From the NCBI GenBank assembly GCA_023548195.1, contig JAJHZJ010000041.1, positions 186,001 through 250,000 of the forward strand: a stretch of DNA of 64,000 nt. Direction: 5' to 3'. This stretch comes from Bettongia penicillata ogilbyi. Its lineage: Eukaryota; Chordata; Mammalia; Diprotodontia; Potoroidae. This document shows positions 2,401-62,175 of the stretch, piece by piece. A model generated the notes under the pieces. It ran no database searches, was not told the origin of the DNA, and was given only the letters and a program-made list of their open reading frames with translations. The position numbers were made by a program, and so were the translations under genes. Within the stretch, counting starts at the first letter, position 1, and each line of letters begins with the position of its first letter.

Positions 2401-3197
2401 AGGAAAGAGTGAGATACTTATGCTAATTGAATAATTCAGTGGATCCAGATCATAAGAAATGTTTGGTTTTTTTACACATTTAAATTTTGAGAATAGAAAA
2501 ATTTACCTCTTTCAAAATCTTATGGACCTCACTGAGCAGGCTTTTTAGTATTCCAGAGCTGACTGCACTGAATACAAATGACACCTTTAGAGGACAATTT
2601 TTGAATCAATAATTTATTTGAGAAAACCTGTCTTCCTCTCCTTTTTTATACTTTATGCTGAATTGTCTCCATGATTCTAGGAAGTAGCTTAGGAAAGCAG
2701 ATGTTTTACTGTTTTAAGGCTGATCATTGACAAAGCATTTGATGTGGTTATATCTTTCTTAGAGTATATAATCATAGAATTTTAATGTATATAAGGGAGA
2801 AACTTCTTTATTCTCTGACCACTTTAAAGGATATTTTATCAAGTCTTGTGCTGAGTATTTAGATGATTTTTTTTAAATTGATTAAGAAATAATTGACAAA
2901 GCAGGATGTAGCATTTTATACAACTCTTAGTTGAGTGACTATGAAGATGTGAGTGCATAAAAAACCTTTTGTGGAAAACTTCCTATTTTCTTTTCATTTG
3001 ATTTCATCAAGGATAAGCAAAGTGTATGTGTGTGTGTGTGTGTGTGAGTGTGTGTGTGTGTGTGAACCATTCTTGCGAAATGATAATAATAATGAGAAAA
3101 CAGACATATAATTTAGTATATGATGACTTCCTTCACTGGGAAGAGAGGGTAAGGATAAGTGTAGCATCTTTAACATGTTTCCTCTTGTGTTGAAACT
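2401..3197. other. Unclassified AT-rich sequence
   Basis: No coding, RNA or recognisable repeat structure was seen, apart from a (TG)n microsatellite at 3023-3064. Confidence 0.5.
3023..3064. repeat. (TG)n microsatellite
   Basis: About twenty TG units with one GA interruption near the middle. Confidence 0.95.
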
Positions 3198-4815
3198 GTC
3201 TTCGCTACCAGACCTCAAATTGTATTATAAAACAGCAATTATCAAAACCACTTGGTATTGGCTAAGAAACAGAGGGGTAGACAAATGGAATAGACTTGGC
3301 ACTCAAGACACAGTAGGCAAGGAATATAGCAACCTCTTGTTTGATAAACCCAAAGATCCCAGCTTCTGGGACAAGAACTCTGTTCGACAAAAATTGCTGG
3401 GAAAACTGGTTAACTGTGTGGCTGAAATTAGGCATAGACCCATGCCTGACACCGTACACAAGAATAAAGTCCAAATGGGTACATGATTTAGGTATAAAGA
3501 CTGATACCATGAATAAACTGGAGAAGCAAGGGATAGTGTATTTATCAGATTTATGGAGAGGGGAAGAATTTTTTTCTAAAGAAACTATAGAAAGCATTAT
3601 GAAATGCAAGATGGATAATTTTGATTACTTTAAACTGAAAAGTTTTTGCACAACCAAACCCAATGCAACCAAAATTCAGAAGGATGTAGTAAATTGGGAA
3701 AAAAATTTTACAGCTAAGCTCGGGGATAAAGACCTCATTTCTAGAATATATAGAGAACTGAATCAAATATATAACCATCCAAGTCATTCCCCAATTGATA
3801 AATGGTCAAAGGACATGAACAATCAATTTTCAGGGAAAGAAATCAAAGGTATCTATAATCATATGAAAAAGTGCTCTAAATCACTATTGATTAGAGAGAT
3901 GCAAATCAAAACAACTCTGAGGTACCACATCACACCTGTAAGATTGGCAAACATTACAGAACAAGAAAATGATAAATGCTGGAGAGGATGTGGCAGAGTT
4001 GGGACACTAATTCATTGTTGGTGGAGCTGTGAGATCATCCAACCCTTCTGGAGAACGGTTTGGAACTATGCCCAAAGGGCTACAAAAATGTGCATACCCT
4101 TTGACCCAGATATATCGCTACTAGGACTGTATCCCCAAGAGATTATAAAAATGGGAAAGGGTCCCACGTGTACAAAAATATTTATAGCAGCACTCTTTGT
4201 GGTAGCCAAAAACTGGAAGTCAAGGGGATGCCCATCAATTGGGGAATGGCTGAATAAATTATGGTATATGAATGTAATGGAGTACTATTGTGCCATAAGA
4301 AATGATGAACAAGAAGACTTCAGGGAGGCCTGGAAGGACTTATATGACCTGATGCTGAGCGAAAGGAGCAGAACCAGGAGAACTTTGTGCACAGCAACGA
4401 CCACAGTGTGTGAGAGTTTTTTCTGGTAAACTTGGAACTTGGTAAAAACGCAAGAACTTACTGAGAAAAAAAAAAAATCCTGATGTCGGTCTTCTAAGGC
4501 AAAATGCCTTCCACACTCAGAGAAAGAAATATGGAAGTCATTCGCAGAATGTAGCAGATCATGTTTGTGTGTGGGTGGGTTTCAGTGTATTATGTTTTGA
4601 TTTGTTATATGATTTCTTCCATTTATTTTAGTTCGACTACATAGCATGAATATAGTGAAAATGTGCTCAATAGGAAAGTATATGTAGAACCTATACAAAA
4701 TTGTATACGGGGAGGGAGGGGAATATTGGGGGAAGGGTGGGGGAGATAAAATCTTAACTTTAAGGAAATGATTGTAAAACATTAAAAAAAATTTAAATTT
4801 AAATTTTAAAAAAAA
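3198..4815 (+). mobile_element. 5'-truncated L1 (ORF2 C-terminus, 3' UTR, poly-A)
   Basis: The element begins inside ORF2 near 3205, runs through the ORF2 stop at 4427-4429, and continues with a 3' UTR (GGCAAAATGCCTTCCACAC near 4500; GGGAGGGAGGGGAATATTGG near 4711) to an A-rich tail ending about 4819. This 3' UTR differs from the HAL1-like 3' UTRs elsewhere in the window. No clean target-site duplication was identified. 5' truncation is the usual outcome of target-primed reverse transcription. Confidence 0.85.
3205..4429 (+). pseudogene. L1 ORF2 C-terminal part (post-RT region and Cys-rich motif)
   Basis: L1 ORF2 encodes the endonuclease and reverse transcriptase that drive retrotransposition. 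Only the last third is present. The first frame (3205 to about 3390) reads LPDLKLYYKTAIIKTTWYW and passes by a small frameshift near 3390 into the second frame, which stays open to 4429, giving about 345 recognisable residues. Landmarks include LTPYTRIKSKW, SFCTTKP, LISRIYRELNQIY, REMQIKTTLRYHITPVR, and the Cys-rich motif CWRGCGRVGTLIHCWWSC near 3978-4031, typical of the L1 ORF2 C-terminus. The catalytic domains are absent, so it cannot act. The long second frame suggests a fairly young insertion. There is no genuine start codon. Confidence 0.88.
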
Positions 4816-8065: not shown

Positions 8066-8145
8066 GGGGCAGTTAAGATGGAACAGTGACTGGAACCCAA
8101 GATCTGGAGTCAGAAAGACCAAAGACTAAGTATAAGACTGGATTT
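8066..8145 (+). mobile_element. RTE-tailed SINE (SINE A), left part, split by HAL1-like insertion
   Basis: GGGGCAGTTAAGATGGAAC...CTGGAGTCAGAAAGACC is the head of SINE A. It stops at 8145, at the end of AAGACTGGATTT (8134-8145), which is repeated at 11129-11140 after the inserted element. The SINE continues at 11141. Confidence 0.8.
8134..8145. repeat. Target-site duplication, left copy (HAL1-like copy 1)
   Basis: AAGACTGGATTT is identical to 11129-11140; the first two As of the right copy overlap the poly-A tail. The bottom strand at the junction reads TCTT/AT, close to the L1 endonuclease preference TTTT/AA. Confidence 0.9.
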
Positions 8146-8999
8146 GGGCGGAGCCAAGATGGCGGAGTAGAAGGACGCACGTTTACGAGCTCCGAAACCA
8201 AAGCCCATAGAATTAATGTAAAAAGAGTCCCCCATAACTTCTGGGTCAATACAAGGTGTGCAGAAATGGAGTGGAAGAGATTTCCGTTCCAGGGAGCCCT
8301 GGAGATCCATCCCCAGGGTCCGTTGCAACCCAGAAAGTGGACCCCACCCCCAGCGCTGCCCTGGCCGCGACCCCAGAGAAGCTGATCCGAGCAGGCTTCA
8401 GAGACAGAAGCTCCGGCAGCCAGGAAAGTCCCTCCGCCCACAGAAGCTACAGGTCAGTGAGAGAGAAGGCCAGGCTGGAGGAGAGGGGGAGCAGGGCGTC
8501 TCTGTGACTCAGGCCCCCTTGGGAGGAAGCAGTGGCAGCAGACACGGGGGCAGGAAGCAGCGGAGGCAGAGATGTGGGTGGAGGCTGAGGCGGCAGGCAG
8601 CAGACCGGGACTCAGGAATCCCCCAGCAGCAGGCAGGATCGTCATTACGGAAGATTCCCTGCATAAAACCTGAGGGAGCTGAGCCTGGGAGACGGACCTG
8701 CCCCCACCCCGCTCTATTACTGAAGGCTTCTGCTTAAAGTCCCTGAGGGAACTGAGTGTGGGAGGCGGGCCCCCCACCCCGCCCCCACTCGCTCCATTCC
8801 TGAAAGTCTCTACATAAAACCCCTGAGGGAAACGAGCCTGGGAGGCGGCCCTGCCCCCACCCCAGCACCTGAACTAAAGCTCACTGATTGACAGCCAGCA
8901 GGAGGAAAGCCCATTTAAATCTCAGAGGCCAAGAACTAGCTGGGCAGATCCAGGCAGGGGTGGAAAGGAATCTCAGAAGTCAAGTAACTGGCTGGGAAA
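8146..8999 (+). promoter_or_regulatory. HAL1-like 5' UTR / internal promoter with YY1-type site
   Basis: The GC-rich leader contains CAAGATGGCGG at 8155-8165, ten bases from the element start, which matches the YY1 site that positions initiation in L1 5' UTRs. CpGs are concentrated here compared with the CpG-poor surroundings. Long frames cross it on both strands but begin at GTG codons and are not called as genes. Promoter activity is inferred from L1 biology. Confidence 0.65.
8661..8872 (+). repeat. 5' UTR tandem monomers (three units)
   Basis: Three diverged units of 60-80 bp start near 8661, 8731 and 8811. Each has CATAAA(A/G)CC-type sequence, CTGAGGGA, GAGCCTGGGAG, a CCCCCACCCC tract and, in the first two, CTGAAGGCTTCT or CTGAAAGTCTCT. 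The copy at 60991 also has three units; the copy at 56641 has two. Confidence 0.8.
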
Positions 9000-10099
9000 A
9001 TGCCTAGAAAAGGGAAGAAAAATAAGACTTTAGAGAGTTTTTTCCAACAAATGCAAATGATCCCGACCTTTGGATCTGATGATGAGGACGTATCCTTGCC
9101 ATCAGGGAAAGACGTGGAGGGTGGGGCCTCAGTACCCCAGACACCCCAGGGGGTGGCAGGTGGGCTCAGGCCCTGGAAGAGCTCAAAAAGGATTTTGAAA
9201 AGCAAGTTAGACAGGTGGGGGAAAAACTGGGAAGAGAAATGTCAGAGATGCAAGAAAAGTATGAAAAACGGGTCAATACCTTGGTAAAGGAGACCCAAAA
9301 AAATGCTGAGGAAATTAACACCTTGAAAAATAGGCTCACTCAATTGGCAAAAGAGGTTCAAAAAGCCAATGAGGAGAAGAATGCTTTCAAAAGCAGAATG
9401 AGCCAAATGGAAAACGAGGCTCAAAAGCTCACTGAAGAGAATAGTTCTCTCAAAATTAGAATGGAACAGATGGAGTCTAATGACTTTCTGAGAAACCAAG
9501 AAATCACAAAACAAAACCAAAAGAATGAAAAAATGGAAGAGAATGTGAAATATCTCATGGGAAAAACAACTGACCTGGAAAATAGATCCAGGAGAGACAA
9601 TTTAAAAATTATGGGACTACCTGAAAGTCATGATCAAAAAAAGAGCCTAGACATCATCTTCCATGAAATTATCAAGGAAAACTGCCCTGACATTCTAGAA
9701 CCAGAGGGCAAAATAAGTATTGAAAGAATCCATCGATCACCACCTGAAAGAGATCCAAAAAGAGAAACTCCTAAGAATATTGTGGCCAAATTCCAGAACT
9801 CCCAGTTCAAGGAGAAAATCTTGCAAGCAGCTAGAAAGAAACAATTCCAGTACTGTGGAAATACAATCAGGATAACTCAAGATCTAGCAGCTTCTGCATT
9901 AAGGGATCGAAGGGCGTGGAATAGGATATTCCAGAAGTCAAAGGAACTAGGACTCAAACCAAGAATCACCTACCCAGCTAAATTGAGTATAATACTTCAA
10001 GGGAAAATATGGTCTTTCAATGAAACAGAGGACTTTCAATCATTCTTAATGAAAAAACCAGAGCTGAAAAGAAAATTTGACTTTCAAACACAAGAATGA
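9000..10099 (+). pseudogene. L1-type ORF1 protein (coiled coil, RRM, C-terminal domain), one frameshift
   Basis: ORF1p is the trimeric RNA-binding chaperone that packages L1-type RNA. The ATG at 9000 follows GGCTGGGAAA, as in the other copies. Reading MPRKGKKNKTLESFFQQMQM, the frame continues to about residue 50. A G is then missing from the G-run at 9149-9153 relative to 61999-62004, shifting into the frame that continues to the stop at 10099. The second frame has a long heptad coiled coil (repeats of NEEKNAFKSRMSQMENEAQKL type, about 9290-9500), the RRM core (DNLKIMGLPESHDQKKSLDI, about 9597-9656), and the C-terminal domain with RIHRSPPERDP, GNTIRITQDL and YPAKLSIILQG. Total length of about 366 residues is normal for mammalian ORF1p. 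Apart from the single deletion it is intact, so the insertion is young. Confidence 0.9.
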
Positions 10100-11081
10100 G
10101 AAGAAGCATGAAAAAGGAAACAGCAAAGAGAAGTCTTAAGGGACTTACCAGAAGTGAACTGTTTACATTCATATAGGGAAAGACAATATTTGTAACTCTT
10201 AAAACTTTTCAGTATCTGGGTAGTTGGTGGGACCACACATACACATGTACACGCATGCACACACATACACACATGCACACACATACAGAGATAGAGAGCA
10301 CAGATTGAACTGAATAGGATGGGACCATACCTTAAAAGAAACTAAGGTAAATGGTGAGAGAGAAATGTAGGGGGAGGGAAAGGGAAGGGAGTAACTATAT
10401 GTCATTTAAGAGGCAGGTAGGAGTTTTTCTTAGTGGAGGGAAAAAGAGGAGAGCTGAGAAAAAAAAAAAAAGAAGTTTACCCTCATCACATTTGACTAAA
10501 CAAAGGAGTGAAGTGCACACTCATTTTGGTATGAAAACCTATCTTACAGTATAAGAAAGTGGGGGAGAAGGAGATATTGCAAGGGAGGGGATGATGGAGG
10601 GGAGGGCAAAGGGAGGAGGGAGCAATTTGAAGTCAACACTTGGGGAGGGACAGGATCAAGAGACAGAAGAGAAACAATGAGGGGCAGGTTAGGAGGGATG
10701 GTAATCTAGTTAGTCTTACACAACACGACTATCAGGGAGGTCATTTGCAAAACTACACAGATATGGCCTATATTGAATTGCCTGCCGTCCCAAAGGGAAT
10801 GAGTGGGGAGGGAGGGATGGGGAGAATTTGGAATTCAAAGTTTTAGGAACAACTGTTTAATATTGTTGTAACTAGGATAGAAGACATACAGTTAATGAGG
10901 AATAGAAAGTCATCTGGCCCTACAGGAGAAAAGAGAAGATGGAGACAAGAGAAGGGAGGGATGACAGAAGAGAGGACAGATTGGAGATAGGGAAAATTAG
11001 ATTGCTTGGGGTATTGGGGTGGGGGGAGGGGATAAAAGGGGAGAAAATTTGGAACCCAAAAATTTGTGAAAATGAATGTAA
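10100..11081 (+). other. HAL1-like 3' UTR (purine-rich, duplicated terminus)
   Basis: It contains, in order, GGACTTACCAGAAGTGAACTG, a CA array, G/A-rich blocks, TATTGAATTGCCTGCC, the first terminus-like block TTTGGAATTCAAAGTTTTAG (about 10828), a second G-rich block, and the final terminus TTTGGAACCCAAAAATTTG (about 11049). The strong purine bias makes spurious frames on both strands. Confidence 0.75.
10237..10290. repeat. (CA)n-rich array in HAL1-like 3' UTR
   Basis: Interrupted CACACA/CATACA/CATGCA repeats, placed between GGTAGTTGGTGGGA and GAGATAGAGAGCACAG, the same flanks as in sister copies. Confidence 0.85.
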
Positions 11082-11128
11082 AAATTAAATAAATAAAATA
11101 AAATAAATAAAAAAATAAAAAAAAAAAA

Positions 11129-11202
11129 AAGACTGGATTTGAAGATGAGTCTCCAGGGTCATGTAAAGTTGGGCATGATTGAAACTGAACAACAACAAAC
11201 AA
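11129..11202 (+). mobile_element. RTE-tailed SINE (SINE A), right part, with right target-site duplication
   Basis: AAGACTGGATTT at 11129-11140 is the right duplication. The SINE then continues with GGGTCATGTAAAGTTGGGC and the tail GAAACTGAACAACAACAA, the BovB/RTE-like 3' end. Joined with 8066-8145 it makes one SINE with an internal deletion. Confidence 0.82.
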
Positions 11203-24735: not shown

Positions 24736-25720
24736 CAATTTTCTGGTCAAAGGATATAAACAGGCAATATTCAGAAGAAGAAATTAAAGCTATCTATAGT
24801 CATATGAAAAAACATGCTCTAAATCACTATTGGTTAGAGAAACAATTCTAAGGTACCACATCACACCTATCAAACTGACTAATATGACAAAGCAGGAAGA
24901 TGATAAATGGTAGAGAAGATGTGGGAAAATTGGAACACCAATTCATTGCTAGTGAAGTTGTGAACTGATCCAACCATTCCAAAGAGCAATTTAGAACAAT
25001 GCCCAAAGAGTTATAAAAACTGTAGTCACAACCCTGCACATAGGTCAAAACCCAGCAATACCACTTCTAGGGCTGCATTCCAAAGAGATCATAAAAATGG
25101 GGAAAGACCCACATGTACCAAAATATTTATAGCAGCGTTTTTTATGATTGCCAAGAACTGGAAATTAAGGTGACGCCCATCATTTGGGCAATGACTGAAC
25201 AAGTTGTGGTATATGAATGTAATGGGATATTATTGTGCTATAGGAAATGATGAAAATGCAGATTTCAGAAAAATCTGGACTTATATGAACTGATGCTGAG
25301 TGAAGTGAATAGAACCAGGAGAAAAATTGTACATATTACGAGCTATAGCGTGTGATGACTGACTTTGATGGACTTAGCCCTTCTCATCAATGCAAGTACC
25401 TAAACCAGTTGCAAAGGACTCATGACAGAAAATGCGATCCATATCCAGAGAAAGAATTATGGAGTCTGAATGCAAAGTGAAGCAGATTATTTTCTTTTGT
25501 TCTGTTTCATTCTCATGGTTTTTCTCTTTTGCTCTAATTCTTCTATATAATATGACTAATGTGAAAATATGTTTAATGGGAATGTATATGTAGAGCCTAT
25601 ATCAAATTGCATGCTGTCTTGGGGACGAGGAGTAGAAGGAAGTTGGACAAAATGTAAAAGTTATGGAGGTGAATGTCGAAAACTAAAAATAAATAAGTTA
25701 ACTTAAAAATATTATTTTAA
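24736..25720 (+). mobile_element. L1 fragment (ORF2 C-terminus, 3' UTR, tail)
   Basis: TTTCTGGTCAAAGGATATAAA begins an ORF2 segment that lies upstream of the preceding fragment in a complete L1. It continues AAGGTACCACATCACACC, GTAGAGAAGATGTGGG, AAATATTTATAGCAGCG, and a 3' UTR with AATGGGAATGTATATGTAGAGCC, ending GTGAATGTCGAAAACTAAAAA. Frames are broken; the CWRGCG-type motif is degraded. Confidence 0.8.
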
Positions 25721-25759: not shown

Positions 25760-26375
25760 GTGTAGCACCAATGTGATATACACAGTGTCAATGGCATCTA
25801 TGAATATGCCAGCGCAGTTCTGAATCACAAAATATAACAGACTTTCCACATGGAAGATAGAACCAAAATATTTATTCAGAAAGTTGAATCCTAATACCAG
25901 AAAACCAAATCCATCATAGTAACAAAGAAATTTATACACAATAACAATACAGGGGGCACTGCCATCCCCAAGCCTTTCCACTGTTAGTCTTCTCACAAAC
26001 CAGCTCTCTTAAACAAATCACAAAACTGAGTCCCTTAAACAAAATCACAGACAAGCCCTCCCATTTATGCTAGTTGCTGCCTGCTCTTTCCCAGCTCTGA
26101 CTGGTCTGACCAATTTCCTCCCAGCTCTGCTCCATCTCTGCGTCTTCTTGTTCTACCCTTCCTGCTCCACTCATTCTTATTCCACTCATTCAACAAGCTC
26201 CTCCCACCATAGGTTTCATGTGACTTAAACTCATGTAACTTAGGCTTCCATGTGGCTTGAGCAGGTCACATAAGCTTGTTAATAAACAAGAAAGATATTC
26301 CCATTCCATTAAAAATACATTCATACCATTAAAATACATTAAAAATACTGTCTATTGGTTCTTTCCCAACATGAC
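25760..26375 (-). mobile_element. LTR-like repeat R2, copy 3 (most complete)
   Basis: On the minus strand this starts TGTTGGGAAAGAACC (26375) and ends near TGCTACACA (25760), so terminal TG...CA is present. It contains AATAAATATTTTGG (polyadenylation-like) near 25880, GGTGGGAGGAGCTTGTTGA near 26210, and a TATTTTTAATG repeat near its start. At about 616 bp it fits a solo LTR. No flanking internal retroviral sequence was seen. Confidence 0.55.
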
Positions 26376-26560
26376 TAATATGGAATATATTTTACATGAT
26401 TGAACATATACAACCTATACCAAATTGCTTGCCATCTTAGTGAGGGGGGAAGTAAGGAAGGGAGGGAGAAAATTTGGAACTCAATTTTTTTTAAATGATT
26501 ATTAAAATTTGTCTTTACATATAATTGAGGGAAAAAATTGTTTTTTAAATGTGAAAATTT
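26376..26560 (+). mobile_element. L1 3' terminal fragment
   Basis: TGACTAATATGGAATATATTTT, CTATACCAAATTGCTTGCC, GGGAGGGAGAAAATTTGGAAC and the ending TTGTCTTTACATATAATTGAGG match L1 3' termini. Confidence 0.8.
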
Positions 26561-31235: not shown

Positions 31236-31399
31236 ATTTTCATTGCAATAGTTGTTGAGTAGCAGAAAAGCGGGCAAAAGATGGAAGGGAATACATAGTT
31301 TTTAGATCATCTATGAATACAAACAATGATGTTTTAAATGAGACATTAATTCAAGAGTGAATAACTTGACATATCATTAGAAAAAAAGGATTTTCAAAA

Positions 31400-32292
31400 T
31401 CAAGTAAGAGTAGAGGAAAAATTGGGAAGATAAATGTGAGTGATGCAGGAAAATCATGAAAAATGAGTCAACAGCTTGCTAAAGGAAACCCAAAATTAGT
31501 GACAAAAATAACACCTTAAAAACAGACTAACCCAAATGGCAAAAGAGGTCTCAAAAGCCAATGAGGAGAAGAATGCCTTAAATAGCAGAATTGGCCAAAT
31601 GGAAAAGAAGGTCCAAAAATTCACCAAAGAAAATAATTCTTAAAAATTGGCATGGAACAAATGGAAGCTAATGACTCTTTGAAAAATCAGGAAATTATGA
31701 AACAAAACAAAAAGAATGAAAAAGTACAAGATAATGTAAAATATCTCATTGGAAAAACAACTGACCTGAAAAATAGATCCAAGAGAAATAATTTAGAAAT
31801 TATTGAACTACCTGAAAGCCATGATCAACAAAAGAGTCTAGACATTATTTTTCAAGGAATTATCAAGAAAAACTGCCCTGGTTTTCTAGAACCAGAGGGG
31901 AAAATAGAAATTGAAAGAATCCACTAGTCACAACCTGGAAGAGATTCCAAAAGCAAAACTCCTAGGAATATTGTAGCCAAATTCCAAAGTTCTCAGGGCA
32001 AGGGGAAAATATTGCAAGCAGCCAGAAAGAAACAATTCAAGTATTGTGAAAGCACAATCAGGATAGTACAGGGTTTAATAGCTTCAATACTAAGGTATTG
32101 GAGGGATTGGAACAATATATTCTGGAGGTCAAAGGAGCCAGGATTAAAATCAAGAATCCCTACCAAGCAAAATTGAGTGCAATCCATAAGAGGAAAAAAT
32201 TGAGATTCAATGAAATAAAGGACATTTAAGTATTCTTGATGAATATATCAGAGTTGAATAGAAAATTTATCTTTCAAATACAAGAATCAAGA
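31400..32292 (+). pseudogene. HAL1-like ORF1 (coiled coil to C-terminus), degraded
   Basis: The only sizeable open part (31652-31927) reads MEQMEANDSLKNQEIMKQN, the RRM segment NNLEIIELPESHDQQKSLDI and KIEIERIH, ending at a TAG where other copies have the conserved Arg/Ser-rich continuation. Earlier coiled-coil sequence and the later C-terminal domain (CCAAATTCCAAAGTTC, AGCACAATCAGGATAG) are present but frameshifted. Non-functional. Confidence 0.82.
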
Positions 32293-32420
32293 GAAGCATG
32301 AAAAGGTAAACAGGAAAAAAAAATCATAAGGTACTTACTAAGTTGAATTGTTTACATTCCTACATGGAAAATGACATTTGTAATTTATGAGATGTTTCTC
32401 AGTATTAGAGTAGTTGGAGG

Positions 32421-32500
32421 GAATATGTGTGTGTGTGAATACATGTGTGTGTTTGTGTGGAGACAGAGATAGACACAGACATATCTGTACATAAATATAC
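32421..32500. repeat. TG-rich array in HAL1-like 3' UTR
   Basis: GTGTGTGTGTG with GTGTTTGTGTG, then GACAGAGATAGACACAGAC; placed where the other copies carry CA arrays, but with the strand composition changed to TG. Confidence 0.7.
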
Positions 32501-33100
32501 ATACATACAAACAGAGGGCACAGGATGAATATGAAGGGATGATATCTAAAAACCAATATTAAGGGGTAAAAGAGAGAAGGGAGAAGGAGAAAGGGAGAGT
32601 AGAATGGTGTAAATTATCTCACATAAAAGAGGCTAGAAAAAGTTTTTATAATGGAGGAGAAGAGGAGGGACATGAGAAAGAATGAGTGATCTTACTCTCA
32701 TCAGATTTGGCTTATGGAGGGAATAACATATACACTCAATTGAGTATGGAAATCTATTGTACCCTACAGGAAAGTAGAGGAGAGAGAATGAGAAAAGAGG
32801 AAATTACAGAAGGAAGGGTAAATGGGAGGAAGTGGTAATCAGAAGTAAACACTTCTGAGGAGGGACAGGGTCAAAGGAGAGAATAGAATAAATGGGGGGA
32901 TGGAATAGAATGAAGGAAAAAATATTTACTCGTTCACAACATGACTGTTATGGAAGTGGTTTGCATAACTACAAATGTGTAACCGATTTCAAATTGCTTG
33001 CCTTCTCAATGAGGGTAATTGGGGAAGAAGGAAGGGAGAGAATGTCAAACTCAAAATTTTAAAAGAAGAATGTTAAAAATTGTTTTTACATGCAACTGAG

Positions 33101-33121
33101 AAATACGACAGACAGACAGAC

Positions 33122-33178
<57 letters not shown>
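33101..33178. repeat. Compound (GACA)n(GATA)n microsatellite
   Basis: About four GACA units followed by about fourteen GATA units, inside the last part of the half-L1 3' UTR. Confidence 0.95.
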
Positions 33179-33385
33179 TGATACTAGGATATAGAAATCT
33201 ATCTTGCCTGGCAGGAAAATGAAAGGGAAGGGTGTAAGAAAAGGTGGAAGTGATAGAAGGGAAGGCAGATTGGAGGAAGGGGTAAACAGAATGCATGCCA
33301 TCTTTGACTGGGGCAAGGGGAGAGATGGGGAGAAAATGTGTAATTCAGAGTGAATGTTGAAAACTAAAAATAAATTAATTAATAG

Positions 33386-33799
33386 AAAAAGAAAATTAAG
33401 GATGGACAACAGCAACAACAAACAATAAGTTATAAAATATCCAAGTAAATTAGGAACCCATAGTTCACTTGTAACTTCAGAGAACTTAGGTTTTTATGTT
33501 GTTGTAAAAAGGAATATTTACAAATAGAAATGAATTGGAAAACTTTCAGTCAATAATAATGAATCTTGATTGATTGATCAGAATACTTGGGATTTTATTA
33601 TAGCATTGTTCTTTCTTGCTTGCTTGCTCTTCATGGAATGGAGCTGATTCTGGGTTTTTGAAGGAAAATGGATTACAAACTCTCATAGGTCCCAAGAAGC
33701 TGTGAAGGCTTCAATGATAGACCTAGCAAAGTCTGCCATAGGAAGATGAGCCTAGGTTAATTCACAAAGGTTCATCACTAGATTGCTATATCAGTAAGC
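33386..33799. other. Unclassified sequence
   Basis: Nothing recognised. May include extra sequence of the following dispersed repeat. Confidence 0.35.
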
Positions 33800-34749: not shown

Positions 34750-34765
34750 GAAAAGTAAGCAGTCA

Positions 34766-35119
34766 GGGCCTATATTGAATTGCCTGCCTTCCCAAAGGGA
34801 ATGGGTGGGGAGGAAGAAATGGGGAGAATTTGGAACTCAAAGTTTTAGGAACAACTGTTGAGTATTGTTCTTGCTACTAGGAAATAAGAAATACAGTTAA
34901 TGGGGAATAGAAAGTCATCTGCCCCTACAGGACCAAAAAGAAGATGGGGGCAAGAGAAGGGAGGGATGATAGAAGAGAGGGCAGCTTGTTGATAGGGAAA
35001 ATTAGAATACTCGATGTATTGGGGTGGGGGGAGGGGATAAAAGGGGAGAAAATTTGGAACCCAAAATTGTGTGAAAATGAATGTAAAAAGTTAAATAAAT
35101 AAATTTATATTAAAAAAAA
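34766..35119 (+). mobile_element. HAL1-like 3' UTR-only insertion with target-site duplication
   Basis: Starts GGGCCTATATTGAATTGCC, contains both terminus-like blocks (TTTGGAACTCAAAG near 34827 and TTTGGAACCCAAAATTG near 35052), and ends in an A-rich tail. It is flanked by GAAAAGTAAGC(A/G)... duplications at 34750-34765 and 35120-35135 (16 bp with one mismatch). A severely 5'-truncated but fairly young copy (few differences from 8146-11130). Confidence 0.9.
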
Positions 35120-35135
35120 GAAAAGTAAGCAATCA

Positions 35136-49479: not shown

Positions 49480-49717
49480 GGAAGGGGTAGAGCCAAAGTG
49501 TTGGAGTAGAAAGACGCATATACTCTAGCTGTTCCCCCACCGCCCTGGGTCCATTGTCCAGGCAGCTCAGCTTACAGCCTGTGGCAGTAGGGAGCAGCTG
49601 ATTTAAACCCCAGCCCTGCATGACAGCCCACCTCCTCCCAAAGCCCAGGGGAACCAAGCAGCTGAGTCTCTCTCAATCTCTTGACAAAGGATTTAGAAGT
49701 AATAACTGGCTGGGAAA

Positions 49718-50730
49718 ATGCCCCCAAAAAGGAAAAAAATAACAAAATCATAGATTACTTTCTTGGTGAACAGGTGTCTCCTTTCATCGTTTCAGAGGAG
49801 GAAAAACAAGACTTATTGTCACAGGAAGTTAAGACCCCTGCCTCCAGGGCCTCCAAAATGAATTTAAGCAGGAATCAGGTGATGGAGAAGCTTGAAAAGT
49901 GAGTTAGCAGCTTGCTAAAGGAGGACCAAAAAATGTTGAGGAAAATAACACCTTTAAAAAGAGGGTAACTCAATTGGAAAAAGAGGTTCAAAAAGCCAAT
50001 GAGGAGAAGGAGGCATTAAAAAGCAGAATTAGCCAAATGGAGGAGAAGGTTCAAAAATTCACTGAACAAAATAGTTCTCTGAAAGAGAGAATTGAGTTCA
50101 GGGAAATGAATGACTACGAGGTAATCCAAGCAGATAAAAATCAAAACCAAAACTTTTAAAAACTAGAAGATGATGTGAAACATCTCATTGGAAAAACAAC
50201 TGACCTGGAAAATAGATCCAGGAAAGACAATTTAAAAATTGTGAGACTACCTGAAAGCTATGATCAAAAAAGAACCTAGACAGTATCTTTCATGAAAATA
50301 CCAAGAAAAACTGTCCTGATATTCTTGAGCCAGAGGGCAAAATAAATATTGAAAGAATCCACCAATCACTGCCTGAAAGAGACCCAAAAAGAGAAACTCC
50401 TAGGATTATTGTGGCCAAATATCAAAGTTCTAAGGTCAAAGAGAAAATACTGCAAGCAACTAGAAAAAACAATTTGAGTATTGTGGAAATACAATCAGGA
50501 TAACACAGGATCTGGCAGCTTCAACATTAAGGGATCAAAGGGCTTGGACTAGGATACTCCAGAAGTCAAAAGAACTGGGATTAAAACCAAGAATCACCTA
50601 CCCAGCAAAACTGAGTATAATACTTCAAGGGAATAAATGGTTATTCAATGATACAGAGGATTTTCAAGCATTCATGATGGGAAAAGACCAGAACTGAAGA
50701 GAAAATTTGACCTTCAAACACAAGAATAAA
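49718..50730 (+). pseudogene. HAL1-like ORF1, degraded
   Basis: The start MPPKRKK at 49718 soon meets a frameshift; the alternative frame reads NNKIIDYFLGEQVS to 49902. A coiled-coil segment (MEKEVQKANEEKEALKSRIS at 49974-50030) and the RRM (DNLKIVRLPESYDQK near 50228-50272) are recognisable, as is the C-terminal domain (GGAAATACAATCAGGATAAC, CCAGCAAAACTGAGTATAAT). Several frameshifts and stops. A relic of the RNA-binding chaperone. Confidence 0.82.
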
Positions 50731-50874
50731 GAGAAGCCTGAAAGGCTAAACAGGAAAGAGAAATCATAAAAAAAAACTTTCTAAAACTGAACTGTTTACA
50801 TTCCTACATGGAAAGAAAATATTTACAAGTCTTGAGACATTTCTCAGTGTTTGGGGAAATGGAAGGATTGTACA

Positions 50875-50912
50875 TACACACACACATACATACACACACA
50901 CACATACATAGA
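50875..50912. repeat. (CA)n array in HAL1-like 3' UTR
   Basis: ACACACACACATACATACAC, between GGAAATGGAAGGATTG and AGAGAGTACAG. Confidence 0.85.
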
Positions 50913-51740
50913 GAGTACAGGCTGTGTTGAATCAGAAGAGATGGCATCCACATGCAAAAAATAAAATAAAATTTAAGGGGTGAGGGAGGAAAATACTGGG
51001 AGGAGAAAGGGAGAAATGGAATGGGGCAGGTTTTAACTCATAAGAGAGATAAAGAAAAATCTTATTCAATGGAGGAGAAAAGGGAGAAGGGGAGAGGGGA
51101 AAAGTGAATCTACTCTCTCCACATATGGCTTAAGGAGGGAATAACATGCTCACTAGATTTGGTATGAAAATCTATCTTATACTACAGGAAAGTAGGGGAG
51201 GAAGTGACAAGTAGGGTGAGGGGAATGATAGAAGGGAGGGCAAATGGGAGAAGGGAGTAACTAGAAAGAAACACTTTTGGGAAGGACAAGGTCAAATGAG
51301 GGAATAAAAAGATAAGGGGGGATAGAGTAGGATGGAGGGCAATACAGTTAGTATTATACAACATGATTATTATGGAAGTCTTTTGCAAAACAACACATAT
51401 TTAGTCTGTATTGAATTGTTTGCCTTCTCAATGAGGATGAATATGGAGGGAGGGAGAGAGAGAAGTTGGAATTCAAAGTATTAGAAACAAATGTTGAGAA
51501 TTATTATTGCATGTAACCAGGAAATAAGAAGCACAGGTAAAGTATAGAAATTTATCTTGCCCTACAAGAAAAGAGAGAAGATGGGGATAAGGGAAGGGTG
51601 GGGTGTGATAGAAGGGAGGGCTTATTGAGGGAAGGGGTAATCAATGCAAGGTATTAGAAGGTGAGGGGAGGGCAGGAATGGGGAGAAAAATTGGACATGT
51701 TACAAAGTGATGTAAAAACAATTAGTATTAAAATAATTGA

Positions 51741-52814
51741 GTGAATTAATTACTGAGACTAAATCAGAGACATCTTTAGTTTGAGGAAAAGAATTTTAGT
51801 CTAAGTTTCCTAGAGGCAGGTAACTTTGGGTAAAATTTGTAATTGATGGAAAAGTTAAGGTTTTAATGATAAATTTGATTTTATGATTGTTATTTAAGCA
51901 GGAACTAGAACATATGTAGAAAGGCAGGTAAGCCACTTAAGACTTGCCTTGAAAGATGTTCCTTAACCATTGTGAAATTATAGTCATATCTGAAACCTGG
52001 TTATTGGAACTTGCCATTTTAAGATGCTATGAGACTAGTAAGTGACTGTTCTTCTGAGTCTAACTCCAGGTATGGATAGCAAGAAAGGTGGTCTGAGTCT
52101 TCAATCCATGATTGCCAGTAAGCCTGCGAAATGCTGGTATGAATTGAAAAAGGTGATCTCATGGGAAGGGTGGGAGAGCAGCTGTTCAGCCTGGGCTGAG
52201 GTAGGATTCTCCTGACTCAGTTTCCCCACTGACACCTGGCAGATTTTAAGCCTCTCTGAATTCAAGTTGACAATCTAGTCTTGTCTGGAACTGACATGAA
52301 GTTGGGGAGATATTGTTTCCCTGCAATGTCCCTACTCTCAGTGGCAGTTTCCTATAGTCAAAAGGTTTGTAACCTTAATACTAGATCTATTAAATTATAG
52401 ATTGTTGGTAGGGAAACATCTGAGGTTAAGTCTAAAATTAAGTTATTAGGCTTAGGACTTTAGACTAACGACAATAAGTTAGAGGCCTTTAATTCTTAGT
52501 AATAGTTTGGAGACAATTAGGTCAAGGACTTAAAAAGTTAGCATACACAGTTATTATTTGCATCTTGGTTAATGTTAAAAAAAATTCATTTGTTGTCTAT
52601 ATTGCAAATGATTTAAAAGAAGTATCACCTGACCAAAAGTTGGAGTTGTTTCGTGTGATATGAACTATATTAAAAATGAAAAATAAAAAAAAATAAAGAG
52701 GCAGAGGAACAAGAAGAAAAAAAATAAATTCAGGAATCCTAATTCTTAAAAAAAAAAAGTATTCAGGAGAAAACAAGCATGTTGAGGAGAAGGCTAGTGA
52801 TCATTATCATTGGG
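51741..52814. other. Unclassified sequence
   Basis: No repeat recognised except an A-rich AAATAAA stretch near 52676-52725 that may be an old retroposon tail. Confidence 0.35.
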
Positions 52815-56624: not shown

Positions 56625-56640
56625 GGTATTCATTCTTTTT
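56625..56640. repeat. Target-site duplication, left copy (minus-strand HAL1-like)
   Basis: GGTATTCATTCTTTTT is repeated exactly at 59529-59544. Confidence 0.92.
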
Positions 56641-57504
56641 TTTTTTGAAATCCAGGTATTTTATTTTTTTATTTTTGTTTATTTTTTTATTTAACTTTTT
56701 ACATTCATTTTCACAAAATTTTGGGTTCCAAATTTTCTCCTCTTTTATCCCCTCCCCCCACCCCAATACACCAAGCACTCTAATTTTCCCTATCACCAAT
56801 CTGCCCTCTCTTCCATCATCCCTCCCTTCTGTTGTCCCCATCTTCTCTTTTGTCCTGTAGGGCCAGATGACTTTCTATTCCCCATTACCTGTATTTCTTA
56901 TTTCCTAGTAGCAGCAACAATACTCAACAGTTGTTCCTAAAACTTTGAGTTCCAAATTCTCCCCACCCCTCCCTCCCCACCCATTCCCTTTGGGAAGGCA
57001 GGCAATTCAATATAGGCCATATCTGTGTAGTTTTGCAAATGACTTCAATAATAGTCATGTTGTGTAAGACTAACTGTATTTCCCTCCATCCCATCCTGCC
57101 CCTCATTGTTTCTATTCTGTCTTTTGATCCTGTCCCTCCCCGAGTGTTGACTTCAAATTGCTCCCTGCTCCCATTGTCCTCCCTCCCATCATCCCGCCCC
57201 TTGCTTATCTCCTTCTCCCCCACTTTCCTGTATTGTAAGATAGGTTTTCATACCAAAATGAGTGTGCATTTTATTCCTTCCTTTAGTTGAATGTGATGAG
57301 GGTAAACTTCTTGTTTTTTTTTCTCAGCTCTCCTCTTTTTCCCTCCACTAAAAAGTCTCCTACTTGCCTCTTAAATGACATATAATTACCCCATTCCATT
57401 TCACCCTCTTTCCTCCCACTACATTTCTCTCTCACCATTTACCTTAATTTCTTTTCAGCTATGGTCCCATCCTGTTCAATTCACTCTGTGCTCTCTGTCT
57501 CTGT

Positions 57505-57565
57505 GTGTGTGTGCATGTATGTATGTGTGTGTGCGTGCATGCGTGTACGTGTGTGTGTATAATCC
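57505..57565. repeat. (TG)n array (CA on the element strand) in HAL1-like 3' UTR
   Basis: GTGTGTGTGTGCATG and GTGTACGTGTGTGTG; same 3' UTR position as in sister copies. Confidence 0.88.
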
Positions 57566-57695
57566 CAACAACTACCCAGATACAGAAAAATTTTAAAAGT
57601 TACAAATATTGTCTTTCCATGTAGGAATGTAAACAGTTCACTTTTGGTAAGTCCCTTATGACTTCTCTTTGCTGTTTACTTTTTCATGCTTCTTC

Positions 57696-58796
57696 TCATT
57701 CTTGTGTTTGAAAGTCAAATTTTCTTTTCAGCTCTGGTCTTTTCATCAAGAATGCTTGAAAGTCCTCTGTTTCATTGAAAGACCATATTTTCCCCTGAAG
57801 TATTATACTCAGTTTAGCTGGGTAGGTGATTCTTGGTTTGAGTCCTAGTTCCTTTGACTTCTGGAATATCCTATTCCATGCCCTTTGATCCCTTAATGTA
57901 GAAGCTGCTAGATCTTGAGTTATCCTGATTGTATTTCCACAATACTGGAATTGTTTCTTTCTAGCTGCTTGCAGTATTTTCTCCTTGACCTGGAAATTCT
58001 GGAATTTGGCCACAATGTTCCTAGGAGTTTCTCTTTTTGGATCTCTTTCAGGCGGTGATCGATGGATTCTTTCAATACTTATTTTGCCCTCTGGTTGTAG
58101 AATGTCAGGGCAGTTTTCCTTGATAATTTCATGAAAGATGATGTCTAGGCTCTTTTTTTGATCATGACTTTCAGGTAGTCCCATAATTTTTGAATTGTCT
58201 CTCCTGGATCTATTTTCCAGGTCAGTTGTTTTTCCCATGGGATATTTCACATTCTCTTCCATTTTTTCATTCTTTTGGTTTTGTTTGGTGATTTCTTGGT
58301 TTCTCAGAAAGTCATTACACTCCATCTGTTCCATTCCAATTTTGAGAGAACTATTCTCTTCAGTGAGCTTTTGAACCTCTTTTTCCATTTGGCTAATTTT
58401 GCTTTTGAAAGCATTCTTCTCCTCATTGGCTTTTTGAACCTCTTTTGCCAATTGAGTGAGCCTATTTTTTCAAGGTGTTATTTTCTTCAGCATTTTTTTG
58501 GGTCTCCTTTACCAATGTATTGACCCATTTTTCATGCTTTGCTTGCATCTCTCTCATTTCTCTTCCCAGTTTTTCCTCCACCTGTCTAACTTGATTTTCA
58601 AAATCCTTTTTGAGCTCTTCCATGGCCTGAGCCCAGCGGACATCCACCTGGGATGTCTGGGATACAGAGGCCCTGCCCTCCACATCTTTCCCTGATGGTA
58701 AGAATATTTCCTCATCATCAGAATTGAAAGGCGGGAACATCTGTACCCCCTCAAATAGCTCTCTATAGTCTTATTTTTCTTCCCTTTTCTGGGCAT
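57696..58796 (-). pseudogene. HAL1-like ORF1 protein, two compensating frameshifts
   Basis: Starts MPRKGKKNKTIES at 58796. A one-base deletion between about 58775 and 58735 shifts the frame to FNSDDEEIFLPSGKD...LVKETQKNAEENNTLKK (to 58462), and a one-base insertion in the A-run near 58468 returns to the original frame, which stays open for 251 residues to 57696. That part holds the coiled coil (NEEKNAFKSKISQMEKEVQKL), the RRM (DNSKIMGLPESHDQKKSLDI) and the C-terminal domain (RIHRSPPERDP; GNTIRITQDL; YPAKLSIILQG). About 365 residues in all, the usual ORF1p size. Confidence 0.9.
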
Positions 58797-59528
58797 TTTC
58801 CGAGGCAGTTACTTGACTTCTGAGATTCCTGTCCACCCCCGCCTGGATCTGCCCAGCTAGTGCTTGGGGTCTGAGATTCAAATGGGCTTTCCGTGGCAGG
58901 CAGGGCTGCTATTCAATGTGAGTTTAAGTTCTGGTGCTTGGGTGGGGGCAGGGCCGACTCCCAGGCTCAGTTCCCTCAGGGGCTTTATGCAGAGACCTTC
59001 AGTAATGGGGTGGGTGGGGGCAGGGCTGTCTCCCAGGCTCAGTTCCCTCAGATGGTTTATGCAGAGACCTTCAGTAATGGGGCTCCTGCCTGCTCAGGGA
59101 GTCCCGGACTGCCACCACTGCCTCTGCCACTGCCTCTGCTGCTGCCTCCCGAGGGGTCCCGAGTCACGGAGGCACCCCACTTCCCTCTCGGCCAACCCAG
59201 ACGTCTCTCTCACTGACCTGGAGCGTCTGTGGGCGGAGGGACCTTCCCGGCCGCGGGAGGTTCCATCCCTCAAGCCTACTTGGATCTGCTCCTCTGGGGC
59301 CGCACTGCCAGGGCAGCACAGGGGTGGGCTCTGCTTTCCGGGGTGCAATGGACCCCTGGGGACAGCTTTCCAGGGCTCTCTGGAACGGAAATCTTTTCCA
59401 CTGTGTTTCTGCACGCCTTGCAATGCTCCAGAATTTGTGGGGAGTTCTTCTTGCAGGAAATATATGGGCTGTGGGTTCGGAGCTAGCGTACGTGAGTCTT
59501 TGTACTCCACCATCTGGGCTCCACCCCC
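58797..59528 (-). promoter_or_regulatory. HAL1-like 5' UTR (two monomers), minus strand
   Basis: GC-rich leader with two tandem monomers (about 58926-58990 and 58991-59061). The YY1-type core near 59510 is CAGATGGTGG instead of CAAGATGGCGG, so the site is probably weakened. Long frames on both strands lack ATG starts that would be shared between copies. Confidence 0.6.
58926..59061 (-). repeat. 5' UTR tandem monomers (two units)
   Basis: Each unit shows, on the minus strand, CTGCATAAA, CTGAGGGAACTGAGCCTGGG and CCCTGCCCCCACCC. Confidence 0.75.
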
Positions 59529-59544
59529 GGTATTCATTCTTTTT
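59529..59544. repeat. Target-site duplication, right copy
   Basis: GGTATTCATTCTTTTT, identical to 56625-56640. Confidence 0.92.
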
Positions 59545-60977: not shown

Positions 60978-60990
60978 GAGAAAATTAATT
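60978..60990. repeat. Direct repeat flanking truncated HAL1-like copy, left
   Basis: GAGAAAATTAATT, repeated exactly at 62161-62173. Confidence 0.85.
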
Positions 60991-61848
60991 GAGGGGTGGA
61001 GCCAAGATGGCGGAGTAGAAGGACGCACGTTTACGAGCTCCGAAACCAAAAGCCCATAGAATTAATGTAAAAAGAGTCCCCCCATAACTTCTGGGTCAAT
61101 ACAAGGTGTGCAGAAGCAGAGTGGAAGAGATTTCCGTTCCAGGGAGCCCTGGAGACCCATCCCCAGGGTCCATCGCACCCCAGAAAGTGGACCCCACCCC
61201 CAGCGCTGCCCTGGCCGCGGCCCCAGAGAAGCTGATCCGAGCAGGCTTCAGAGATGGAAGCTCCGGCAGCCAGGAAAGTCCCTCCGCCCACAGAAGCTAC
61301 AGGTCAGTGAGAGAGAAGGCCAGGCTGGAGGAAAGGGGGAGCGAGCAGGGCATCTCCGTGACTCCGGCCCCCTCGGGAGGAAGCGGCAGCGGCTGAGACA
61401 GGGCCAGGAAGCGGCGGAGGCAGAGGAGTGGGCGGAGGGTGAGGCGGCAGCGGACCGGGACTCAGGAATCCCCCAACAGCAGGCAGGATCTTCATTACAG
61501 AAGATTCCCGCATAAAACCTGAGGGAGCTGAGCCTGGGAGACAGCCCTGCCCCCACCCCACTCTATTACTGAAGGCTTCTGCTCAAAGCCCCCAAGGGAA
61601 CTGAGATTGGGAGGCGGGCCCCCCACCCTGCCCCCACCCGCTCCATTCCTGAAAGTCTCTGCATAAAGCCCCTGAGGGATCAGAGTCTGGGAGGCGGCCC
61701 TGCCCCCACCCCAGCACCTGAACTAAAGCTCACTGATTGACAGCCGGCAGGAGGAAAGCCCATTTAAATCTCAGAGGCCAAGCACTAGCTGGGCGGATCC
61801 AGGCGGGGGTGGAAAGGAATCTCAGAAGTCAAGTAACTGGCTGGGAAA
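60991..61848 (+). promoter_or_regulatory. HAL1-like/L1 5' UTR with YY1-type site
   Basis: CAAGATGGCGG near 61003-61013, CpG-bearing GC-rich leader, and three monomers (starting near 61510, 61581 and 61661). Potentially an intact sense promoter now facing downstream unique sequence. Confidence 0.6.
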
Positions 61849-62160
61849 ATGCCTAGAAAAGGGAAGAAAAATAAGACTATAGAGAGTTTTTTCCAACAAA
61901 TGCAAATGATCCCGACCTTCGGATCTGATGACGAGGACGTATCCTTGCCATCAGGGAAAGACATGGAGGGCGGGGCCTCAGTACCCCAGACACCCCAGGG
62001 GGGTGGTGGGTGGGCTCAGGCCCTGGAAGAGCTCAAAAAGGATTTTGAAAAGCAAGTTAGACAGGTGGAGGAAAAACTGGGAAGAGAAATGAGAGAGATA
62101 CAAGAAAAGTATGAAAATCGGGTCAATACCTTGGTAAAGGAGACCCAAAAAAATGCTGAG
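60991..62160 (+). mobile_element. HAL1-like/L1 5' fragment: intact 5' end, missing 3' end
   Basis: Starts GGGGTGGAGCCAAGATGGCGG, keeps the whole 5' UTR including three monomers and the ATG of ORF1, then stops at AATGCTGAG (62160) where intact copies go on GAAATTAACACC. No poly-A or 3' UTR. Flanked by a 13-bp exact direct repeat. Very similar to 8146-9310, so young. Because the 3' part is missing, it cannot be decided whether the parent was an L1 or a half-L1. Confidence 0.88.
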
Positions 62161-62175
62161 GAGAAAATTAATTAG
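61849..62175 (+). pseudogene. ORF1 N-terminal fragment (truncated)
   Basis: Reads MPRKGKKNKTIESFFQQMQM, GSDDEDVSLPSGKDMEG, then QGGGGWAQALEELKKDFEKQ and the beginning of the coiled coil to NAEEKIN, with the stop at 62173-62175 supplied by flanking DNA. 108 codons of about 366. The N-terminal part is in frame here (G-run complete), which reveals the one-base deletion in the copy at 9000. It lacks RRM and C-terminal domain. Confidence 0.9.
62161..62173. repeat. Direct repeat flanking truncated HAL1-like copy, right
   Basis: GAGAAAATTAATT, identical to 60978-60990. Confidence 0.85.

Follow-up and report, generated by a model that had tools for sequence, protein, structure and literature searches.

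HAL1 families of marsupials are catalogued in Repbase and Dfam. HAL1 (half-L1; Bao and Jurka 2010) elements have several independent origins in mammals according to the passages that cite them in PMC4161310, PMC5322556 and PMC5753468, and young HAL1s are named there for guinea pig, marmoset and rat. The family described here, typified by the copy at positions 8146–11130 of a 64,000-nt stretch of DNA (the window, by which we mean the whole stretch analysed), is a member of this already known kind. It resembles the HAL1s of those passages in having ORF1 only, poly(A), target site duplications (TSDs) and an assumed dependence on L1, and it differs from them in that here the origin of its 3′ UTR and the selection on ORF1 between families have been worked out. 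We consider it, with a probability of about 0.9, to represent a HAL1-type non-autonomous retrotransposon lineage of single origin that arose through loss of ORF2 and presumably uses enzymes supplied in trans.

HAL1 copies in the window

The complete young copy (8146–11130, forward strand) is about 3 kb in size and consists of a 5′ UTR, ORF1, a 3′ UTR directly after ORF1 and an A-rich tail, without ORF2; it is flanked by an exact 13-nt TSD, AAGACTGGATTTG, at 8134–8146 and 11129–11141. The 5′ UTR (8146–8999, +) is the stretch ahead of the ORF1 ATG. The L1-type ORF1 (9000–10099, +), whose frame is broken early in this copy and open from 9086, has the domains of L1 ORF1p (Pfam PF02994 and PF17490) and also matches solved LINE-1 ORF1p structures. 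Its protein has its best matches in wallaby, opossum, wombat and devil, and it is on these matches that the marsupial host proposed in the earlier note stands. Alignment places approximate borders around a first part of the 3′ UTR that is homologous to the ORF1–ORF2 spacer of autonomous L1s (10100–10715, +) and a second with homology to the 3′ ends that some older L1s carry (10716–10885, +), with the deletion breakpoint around 10700–10722; a third part (10886–11090, +) is possibly a second, shorter spacer-plus-tail unit.

This copy is colinear with 17 other copies and differs pairwise by 3.2–4.4% from 16 of them and by 8.1% from the remaining one, L026, a mosaic whose 5′ UTR is 2.1% and whose 3′ UTR is 12.4% from the young majority. 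Seventeen young copies lie 0.9–2.1% from the family majority, and the 366-codon ORF1 is intact in 3 of 17 complete copies; it is solely in this sense, of low divergence and some intact ORF1s, that the family can be called recently active, as the earlier note had it.

A complete copy of a related subfamily (56641–59530, −) is 10.1–11.5% from other complete copies and has a 16-nt TSD, AAAAAGAATGAATACC (59529–59544 and 56625–56640). An older family copy with a short leader (49480–51745, +) and the oldest, which is 5′-truncated within ORF1 (31383–33390, +), have flanks that give 8-nt repeats only, too little to count as a TSD. In all four of these copies ORF1 or its remnant is joined to the 3′ UTR without ORF2, as had been noticed (the oldest being listed at 31400). 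A fifth example, listed at 155, does not hold: the HAL1 part begins at about 216 and is 3′ UTR only (profile positions 26–1014 at 224–1186), forming a 5′-truncated copy (216–1222, +) with its own 16-nt TSD, AAGAAATTAAAAAAGA (216–231 and 1210–1225). The ORF1 frame of another element, translated by eye, lies on both flanks, and the join there is therefore a nested insertion in a separate ORF1 relic; we rejected it as an instance of the arrangement.

Two pieces had been absent from the earlier list, a HAL1 3′-end fragment (34751–35124, +) and a 3′-truncated copy (60994–62171, +) with the 5′ end and the start of ORF1 (element positions 1–1173), no poly(A), and a 13-nt TSD, GAGAAAATTAATT (60978–60990 and 62161–62173). 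Like the tailless retropseudogenes in the passages on them in PMC5322556, the latter copy and L021 have a TSD and no poly(A), but their source is HAL1 RNA cut within ORF1.

Genome-wide occurrence of the ORF1–3′ UTR join

From the thousands of candidates in each DNA search only the top 40 were scored, so that rarer ORF2-bearing relatives could escape, and the counts that follow refer to these best-scoring copies. Searching with the 5′ end (8146–8600; best 40 of 7248 candidates) yielded 39 copies other than the query, 20 of them read over 8.7 kb and 19 around the join only; the join is present in 34 of the 39 and ORF2 in none. ORF1 adjoins the 3′ UTR in 39/39 of the other best-scoring 3′ UTR matches, and the 300 nt of upstream sequence read for each contained no ORF2. 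At this same depth of 300 nt, ORF1 lies upstream of the 3′ UTR in 19/20 sampled relatives of the 49480 copy and 17/20 of the 31383 copy, and none has ORF2. The join recurs in dozens of genomic copies and is therefore not a matter of chance. ORF2 is missing from a multi-copy form and not merely from single copies, and none of the sampled copies has the ORF2 with endonuclease and reverse transcriptase of an autonomous L1. TSDs of 12–19 nt are present in 15 of 17 complete copies, as counted without a chance control, and accompany the A-rich tails; three window copies and the nested one have TSDs too.

The earlier note had expected many copies with one junction, which is seen in 34 of 39 copies selected by 5′ end, and had set against its own reading the case of most copies having ORF2 between ORF1 and the 3′ UTR, which was looked for and found in 0/39 of the best-scoring 3′ UTR matches over the 300 nt read. 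Its suggestion that the ORF1-only form has outlasted subfamily turnover agrees with both older families. What had been observed is thus confirmed in part, and the reading as a half-L1 lineage is supported.

Composite origin of the 3′ UTR

Over its first ~620 nt the HAL1 3′ UTR matches the ORF1–ORF2 spacer of full-length L1s, and over the following ~180 nt it matches certain old L1s at their 3′ end. A profile of the 3′ UTR matches all nine young L1 spacers compared (36–50 bits; at most 2.8 in 300 shuffles), its end (530–621) giving about 0 bits in these young L1s, and it matches the spacers of two old L1s, before ORF2 relics, at 165 and 136 bits (E 8.9e-52 and 5e-43). The old L1 relic L022 gives no significant match to the profile (E 0.18); a further comparison gave it a score of 116, where shuffles reached 118. 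In single sequences the spacer homology is weak: when individual 3′ UTRs are scored pairwise under strict settings, only the oldest copy is clearly above shuffles (z 7.8; others 1.8–3.8), and the z of 5.2 between the young copy's first 600 nt and the young L1 3′ UTR arises because of a short A-rich run.

The L1 3′ ends downstream of ORF2 in L018, L019 and L014 match the profile from positions 609–631 onward (E 2.7e-16, 7.8e-20 and 1.7e-8, respectively). Within the window, an isolated L1-type 3′ end (26356–26534, +) matches profile positions 620–800 (E 2.5e-22), and an old autonomous L1, present as an ORF2 end and a 3′ UTR resembling the HAL1 tail (24744–25710, +), matches positions 673–775 (E 9.9e-5). 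Two of the seven L1 3′ ends tried match poorly, that of the young L1 (E 0.48) and that at 15.4 kb in the window (E 0.011). With these misses and that of L022 allowed for, the matches to L1 spacers and L1 3′ ends indicate that the element descends from an L1 that had lost ORF2. Since the 3′ UTR is spacer followed by L1 3′ tail, ORF2 plus ~150 nt would have been lost once, and the three families of different age inherited the junction from that single loss. The composite 3′ UTR would document the birth of a half-L1, in which a spacer became 3′ UTR and the L1 tail was retained, and it provides a search signature for other marsupials.

We are less certain of the putative second spacer-plus-tail unit at the end of the 3′ UTR. 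An internal repeat is significant in 4 of the 6 copies tested and was not found in L010b or the young copy (8146). In W31 and L013b, both old copies, the terminal tail has its highest scores with the L1 ends of L014 and window-25 (54–71; shuffle maxima 31–37), and for L013b the scores with L018, L019 and the young L1 are above shuffles too. The tail of the young HAL1 copy exceeds shuffles against L018 (46 to 30), barely does so against L019, and does not against L014 or window-25; that of the 49480 copy is above shuffles for none of the L1 ends tried.

Divergence and selection of ORF1

HAL1s pose the question of why an element should keep its own ORF1 while borrowing the enzymes of another. 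Among the three ORF2-less families dN/dS for ORF1 is 0.08–0.13, a comparison based on 71–94 codons and 3–8 nonsynonymous changes, with L095 and L097 (of 20) left out of the 49480 family and 4/20 out of the 31383 family. Within families the private-change ratios are 0.40 and 0.70 (Fisher p 0.014 and 0.00013 versus the between-family values). Purifying selection on ORF1 between the ORF2-less families is evident in these codon comparisons, and values near 0.1 would be predicted for an ORF1p that has to work on the RNA encoding it; the surviving ORF1 probably still aids the copying of these elements. Differing sites in ORF1 amount to 6–9% among the three families, 21–24% versus the autonomous L1 L107, and 17–21% versus the old L1 ORF1 L118. 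Among 221 sites, 9 unite the three families against both L1s, each family–L1 pairing having 0–3, and the two-family site count is 55 versus 15 and 8.

The autonomous L1 and the origin of the lineage

The autonomous L1 of this genome is exemplified by L107 and by a young copy in the window that has an ORF2 end and its own, different 3′ UTR (3150–4815, +), in which the HAL1 3′ UTR profile finds nothing significant (best E 0.48). It is like HAL1 in its ORF1 domain type, in a spacer homologous to part 1 of the HAL1 3′ UTR, and in that CGGAGCCAAGATGG starts both 5′ ends, beyond which their 5′ UTRs have no blastn match; it is unlike HAL1 in the 3′ UTR and in having ORF2, whose open frames are near 1298 codons in length. 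Of 111 scored ORF2 matches, about 40 fall within frames that stay open for some 1293–1308 codons, and a young autonomous L1 of this kind is the likely enzyme donor.

We propose that an ancestral full-length L1 would have lost ORF2 and roughly the first 140–170 nt of its 3′ UTR, fusing the ORF1–ORF2 spacer to the L1 3′ tail, and that a second spacer-plus-tail unit was seemingly added at the end. The 5′ UTR of the element presumably drives HAL1 RNA, which would be translated to ORF1p that most likely remains with its own RNA in cis; endonuclease and reverse transcriptase would be supplied in trans, as ORF2p from the autonomous L1 that shares the genome, and the resulting insertions are A-tailed and flanked by TSDs of about 12–19 nt. 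The loss itself was presumably by deletion and not by splicing or template switching. Splicing of an L1 RNA would fit the intron-like extent of the loss, from just before ORF2 to ~140–170 nt beyond it, but the age of the parents prevented any splice sites from being located at the breakpoint, and we hold it possible though doubtful. A founder made by premature polyadenylation in the ORF1–ORF2 spacer, with no internal ORF2 segment lost, would explain why the 3′ UTR opens with ~620 nt of spacer; the next ~180 nt, however, match L1 3′ ends downstream of ORF2, which a premature end would lack. With the L1 3′ end present we rejected this as the full origin and think it unlikely.

A slightly less probable course of events is that ORF1-only forms arise repeatedly from autonomous L1s, in which the selection on ORF1 would have acted. 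L1s likewise evolve under selection, and sequence exchange seems to occur, given the mosaic L026; but the fused 3′ UTR is common to all three families, whose ORF1s are mutually nearer than to L107 or L118 and share the uniting sites given above. It is barely credible that each copy arose separately from an ordinary L1 by internal deletion and that they sit together by chance. Internally deleted copies do exist, such as L019, which joins element positions 1342 and 2928, yet one arrangement, never with ORF2, prevails in three families (34/39, 39/39, 19/20 and 17/20 sampled copies) and the current autonomous L1 carries a different 3′ UTR; we rejected independent deletions because the junction is common to the copies.

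Intact ORF1 genes in decayed L1s

Two intact ORF1 genes, L118 and L119, lie inside L1s with decayed ORF2, and they look like host genes. L120 (C341), considered as a third, was rejected, because its DNA shares 90% identity with the young HAL1 across 1–1987. In placental mammals an L1 ORF1 gene has been domesticated as L1TD1, which is reported absent from marsupials in the passages on it in PMC4161310; it bears on L118 and L119 only, not on the HAL1 family. On balance we favor the view that in this marsupial L1 ORF1 survives by three routes: as part of the autonomous L1; in an ORF1-only lineage of at least three families that goes back to a single loss and is kept by a benefit in cis; and in at least two immobile genes, L118 and L119. 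If so, the latter would be independently arisen marsupial counterparts of L1TD1 that may act on particles of L1 or HAL1, and such intact genes in dead L1s, if common to marsupials, would add a case of an L1 ORF1 turned host gene. One of the two shares 93% identity with a protein of the Tasmanian devil.

A half-L1 family without ORF2

The element at 8146–11130 consists of a 5′ UTR (8146–8999), an L1 ORF1 (ATG at 9000, stop at 10099) whose frame is broken early in this copy, a 3′ UTR of about 1 kb and an A-rich tail; two exact copies of AAGACTGGATTTG, a target-site duplication (TSD), flank it. The young element's ORF1p has the L1 RRM-like and C-terminal domains, matches solved LINE-1 ORF1p structures, and finds its best matches in tammar wallaby (84%), opossum, wombat and devil proteins, on the strength of which a marsupial host is assumed. 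Retrotransposons with ORF1 only, TSDs, poly(A) and a dependence on L1 are established as HAL1 (half-L1) elements, with several separate mammalian origins described (PMC5322556, PMC5753468), and the genomes screened for L1 and HAL1 in PMC5322556 include opossum, wallaby and devil; the family of 8146–11130 is filed as HAL1. Among the window copies that the earlier note listed as sharing one ORF1–3′ UTR join, located here with blastn and a 3′ UTR profile, those at 8146, 31383, 49480 and 56641 (minus strand) do share it, whereas that at 155 is rejected as an example: only a piece of 3′ UTR (from about 216) is present, with its own TSD and nested in a separate ORF1 relic whose frame resumes on either side of the insertion (translation by eye).

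The genome searched comprises 3.39 Gb in 1116 contigs. With 8146–8600 as the query, the best 40 of 7248 candidates were scored, the window copy among them, leaving 39 others. Many full-length copies of about 3 kb with the same junction had been predicted, and 17 of the 20 copies for which 8.7 kb was read are indeed colinear, complete and about 3 kb long; 15 of these 17 have apparent TSDs of 12–19 nt, called as exact matches. There is no ORF2 inside any of the 20 elements, the nearby ORF2 matches lying outside them, and the HAL1 copies in pieces L012 and L021 stop at element positions 1055 and 1088. The other 19 were read over just 1 kb at the place expected for the join, which is present in 17; at the remaining two (L034 and L036) there is other DNA, with no ORF2 seen by eye in six frames. 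The HAL1 in L117, the piece read for L036, ends within ORF1 at element position 1336, and that in L116, read for L034, continues to 1790 at the piece edge, while a piece starting about 70 nt further on has none. In total, the join is found in 34/39 copies and ORF2 in 0/39.

The opposite arrangement, in which most copies with this 3′ UTR carry ORF2, had been weighed in the earlier note and is not what was found. When copies were selected by the 3′ UTR (query 10300–10900, best 40 of 1924 candidates scored) and 300 nt was read about 250 nt upstream, all 39 others contain ORF1 and none ORF2, although the ORF1 match in L052 covers only 134 nt. The suggestion that the ORF1-only form persisted through subfamily turnover is supported by two older families, for each of which 20 of the 39 others were read. 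In the 49480 family (best 40 of 8671 candidates; 90–92% identical to the query) ORF1 lies upstream in 19/20, 18 in register and one (L095) shifted, with other DNA in one; in the 31383 family (best 40 of 8648; 79–82%) it is present in 17/20, 16 in register and one (L140) shifted, with no recognisable element sequence in three; ORF2 was seen in neither set. As only best matches are scored, these counts apply to the close relatives of each query. The 17 young copies, the window's included, depart by 0.9–2.1% from the family majority, and the 366-codon ORF1 is intact in 3/17 complete copies.

Several variant copies were also seen. L026 is a mosaic HAL1, with a 5′ UTR 2.1% and a 3′ UTR 12.4% from the young majority, and L019 152–1534 is a 1.4 kb derivative in which an internal deletion joins element positions 1–1342 to 2928–2976, with an A-rich tail and a 16-nt TSD. 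Copies truncated at the 3′ side within ORF1 lie at window 60994–62171, L021 8577–7492 (minus strand) and L012 139–1188, and in L117 and L116. In the window 60994 and L021 copies TSDs of 13 and 18 nt lie directly at the break and there is no poly(A), as would fit internal priming of reverse transcription; the L012 copy, which adjoins an inverted copy, shows no more than a weak 9-nt repeat.

Origin of the HAL1 3′ UTR

The ORF2 fragment at 3317–4429 belongs to a young L1, the likely enzyme donor of the HAL1 copies, with 39 other DNA matches at 97–98% (best 40 of 7982 candidates), and of 111 protein matches scored among 358956 candidates about 40 lie in open frames of about 1293–1308 codons. Upstream of the open frame in L107, an autonomous copy, a 5′ UTR and ORF1 are separated from the ORF2 start by some 600 nt of purine-rich spacer; eight more copies have this spacer at 96.6–97.9%. 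We note that L107 and two old L1s, L118 and L119, all have long purine-rich ORF1–ORF2 spacers (about 540–600 nt); the human L1 spacer is about 60 nt.

A 1018-position profile built from seven HAL1 3′ UTRs matches all nine young L1 spacers at 36–50 bits, as against no more than 2.8 bits in 300 dinucleotide-preserving shuffles; profile positions 530–621 are colinear in all nine, yet score no higher than about 0 bits. The match reaches 165 bits (13–633, E 8.9e-52) in one older L1 and 136 bits (7–606, E 5e-43) in another, and ORF2 relics follow both spacers; a third old relic (L022) has no significant match (E 0.18). The young L1's own 3′ UTR (4430–4815) does not match the profile (best E 0.48). 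Among seven L1 3′ ends tried, the young one included, those after ORF2 in L019, L018 and L014 match from 609–631 to 775–802 (E ≤1.7e-8), the window L1 end at 25.2 kb matches 673–775 (E 9.9e-5) and that at 15.4 kb is marginal (E 0.011); an isolated fragment at 26356 matches 620–800. Together, the spacer matches and the old L1 3′-end matches show that the HAL1 3′ UTR combines a spacer with an old-type L1 tail; between the two, ORF2 and some 140–170 nt of 3′ UTR (a length estimated from ORF2 match ends) are missing. Profile positions from about 800 to 1013 may be a second, shorter spacer-plus-tail unit: an internal 3′ UTR repeat is significant in 4/6 copies tested, and the ends of two old copies (window 31383 and L013b) have their highest scores against the L1 ends of L014 and window 25.2 kb, a pattern that is not exclusive and from which young and 49480 copies depart.

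Selection on ORF1

Between-family changes were counted only where the copies of each family agree. On this basis 92 codons show 17 synonymous and 8 nonsynonymous changes between the young and 49480 ORF1s (dN/dS 0.098), and a looser rule gives 0.099, 0.127 and 0.079 for three family pairs over 71–94 codons. Among changes private to single copies, the ratio is 0.40 in 39 young copies (15 stop codons) and 0.70 in 18 copies (21 stop codons), and both sets differ from the between-family changes (Fisher p 0.014 and 0.00013, respectively). The three families' ORF1s are 6–9% apart and 21–24% from that of the autonomous L1, whose ORF1p groups with a tammar protein in a tree (100% support). The low between-family dN/dS and the closeness of the families argue, at the level of sequence, that ORF1p was under selection in lineages having the ORF2-less junction in common. 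On the simplest account, ORF1p would act on its own encoding RNA and ORF2p would be borrowed from L1 in trans.

Intact ORF1 genes in old L1s

Two minus-strand ORF1 frames, L118 (G000:C651:3586400-3591200; 388 codons) and L119 (G000:C711:688900-693400; 378 codons), are intact within old L1s whose ORF2 relics have stops in every frame; in simulations of 10% random substitution only 0.3% of such frames remain open. The wallaby ORF1-like protein P0009 has a single 98% match in the genome, L118, followed by L119 at 72%, the remaining matches listed being at most 71% identical (106 scored of 331856 candidates). L118 agrees with the wallaby protein at 382/388 residues (98.5%) and L119 with a Tasmanian devil protein at 352/378 (93.1%), and both cluster with the database proteins P0004, P0008 and P0009 (98% support). 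Judged by protein comparison only, both are likely L1 ORF1-derived marsupial host genes. L119 is the stronger case, because the L1s of the host suggest a wallaby-like animal and not a dasyurid; the conservation of L118 could reflect mere closeness of the host to wallaby. L1TD1 is described as the only known gene almost wholly derived from L1, and as lacking in marsupials (PMC4161310, 2014); despite this reported absence, the devil ORF1-like protein P0017 carries the L1TD1 name in the database. We also note a marsupial-type L1 ORF1p (P0014) that the protein database assigns to a Bacteroidales metagenome assembly (contig of 2.5 kb) and that is probably host contamination.
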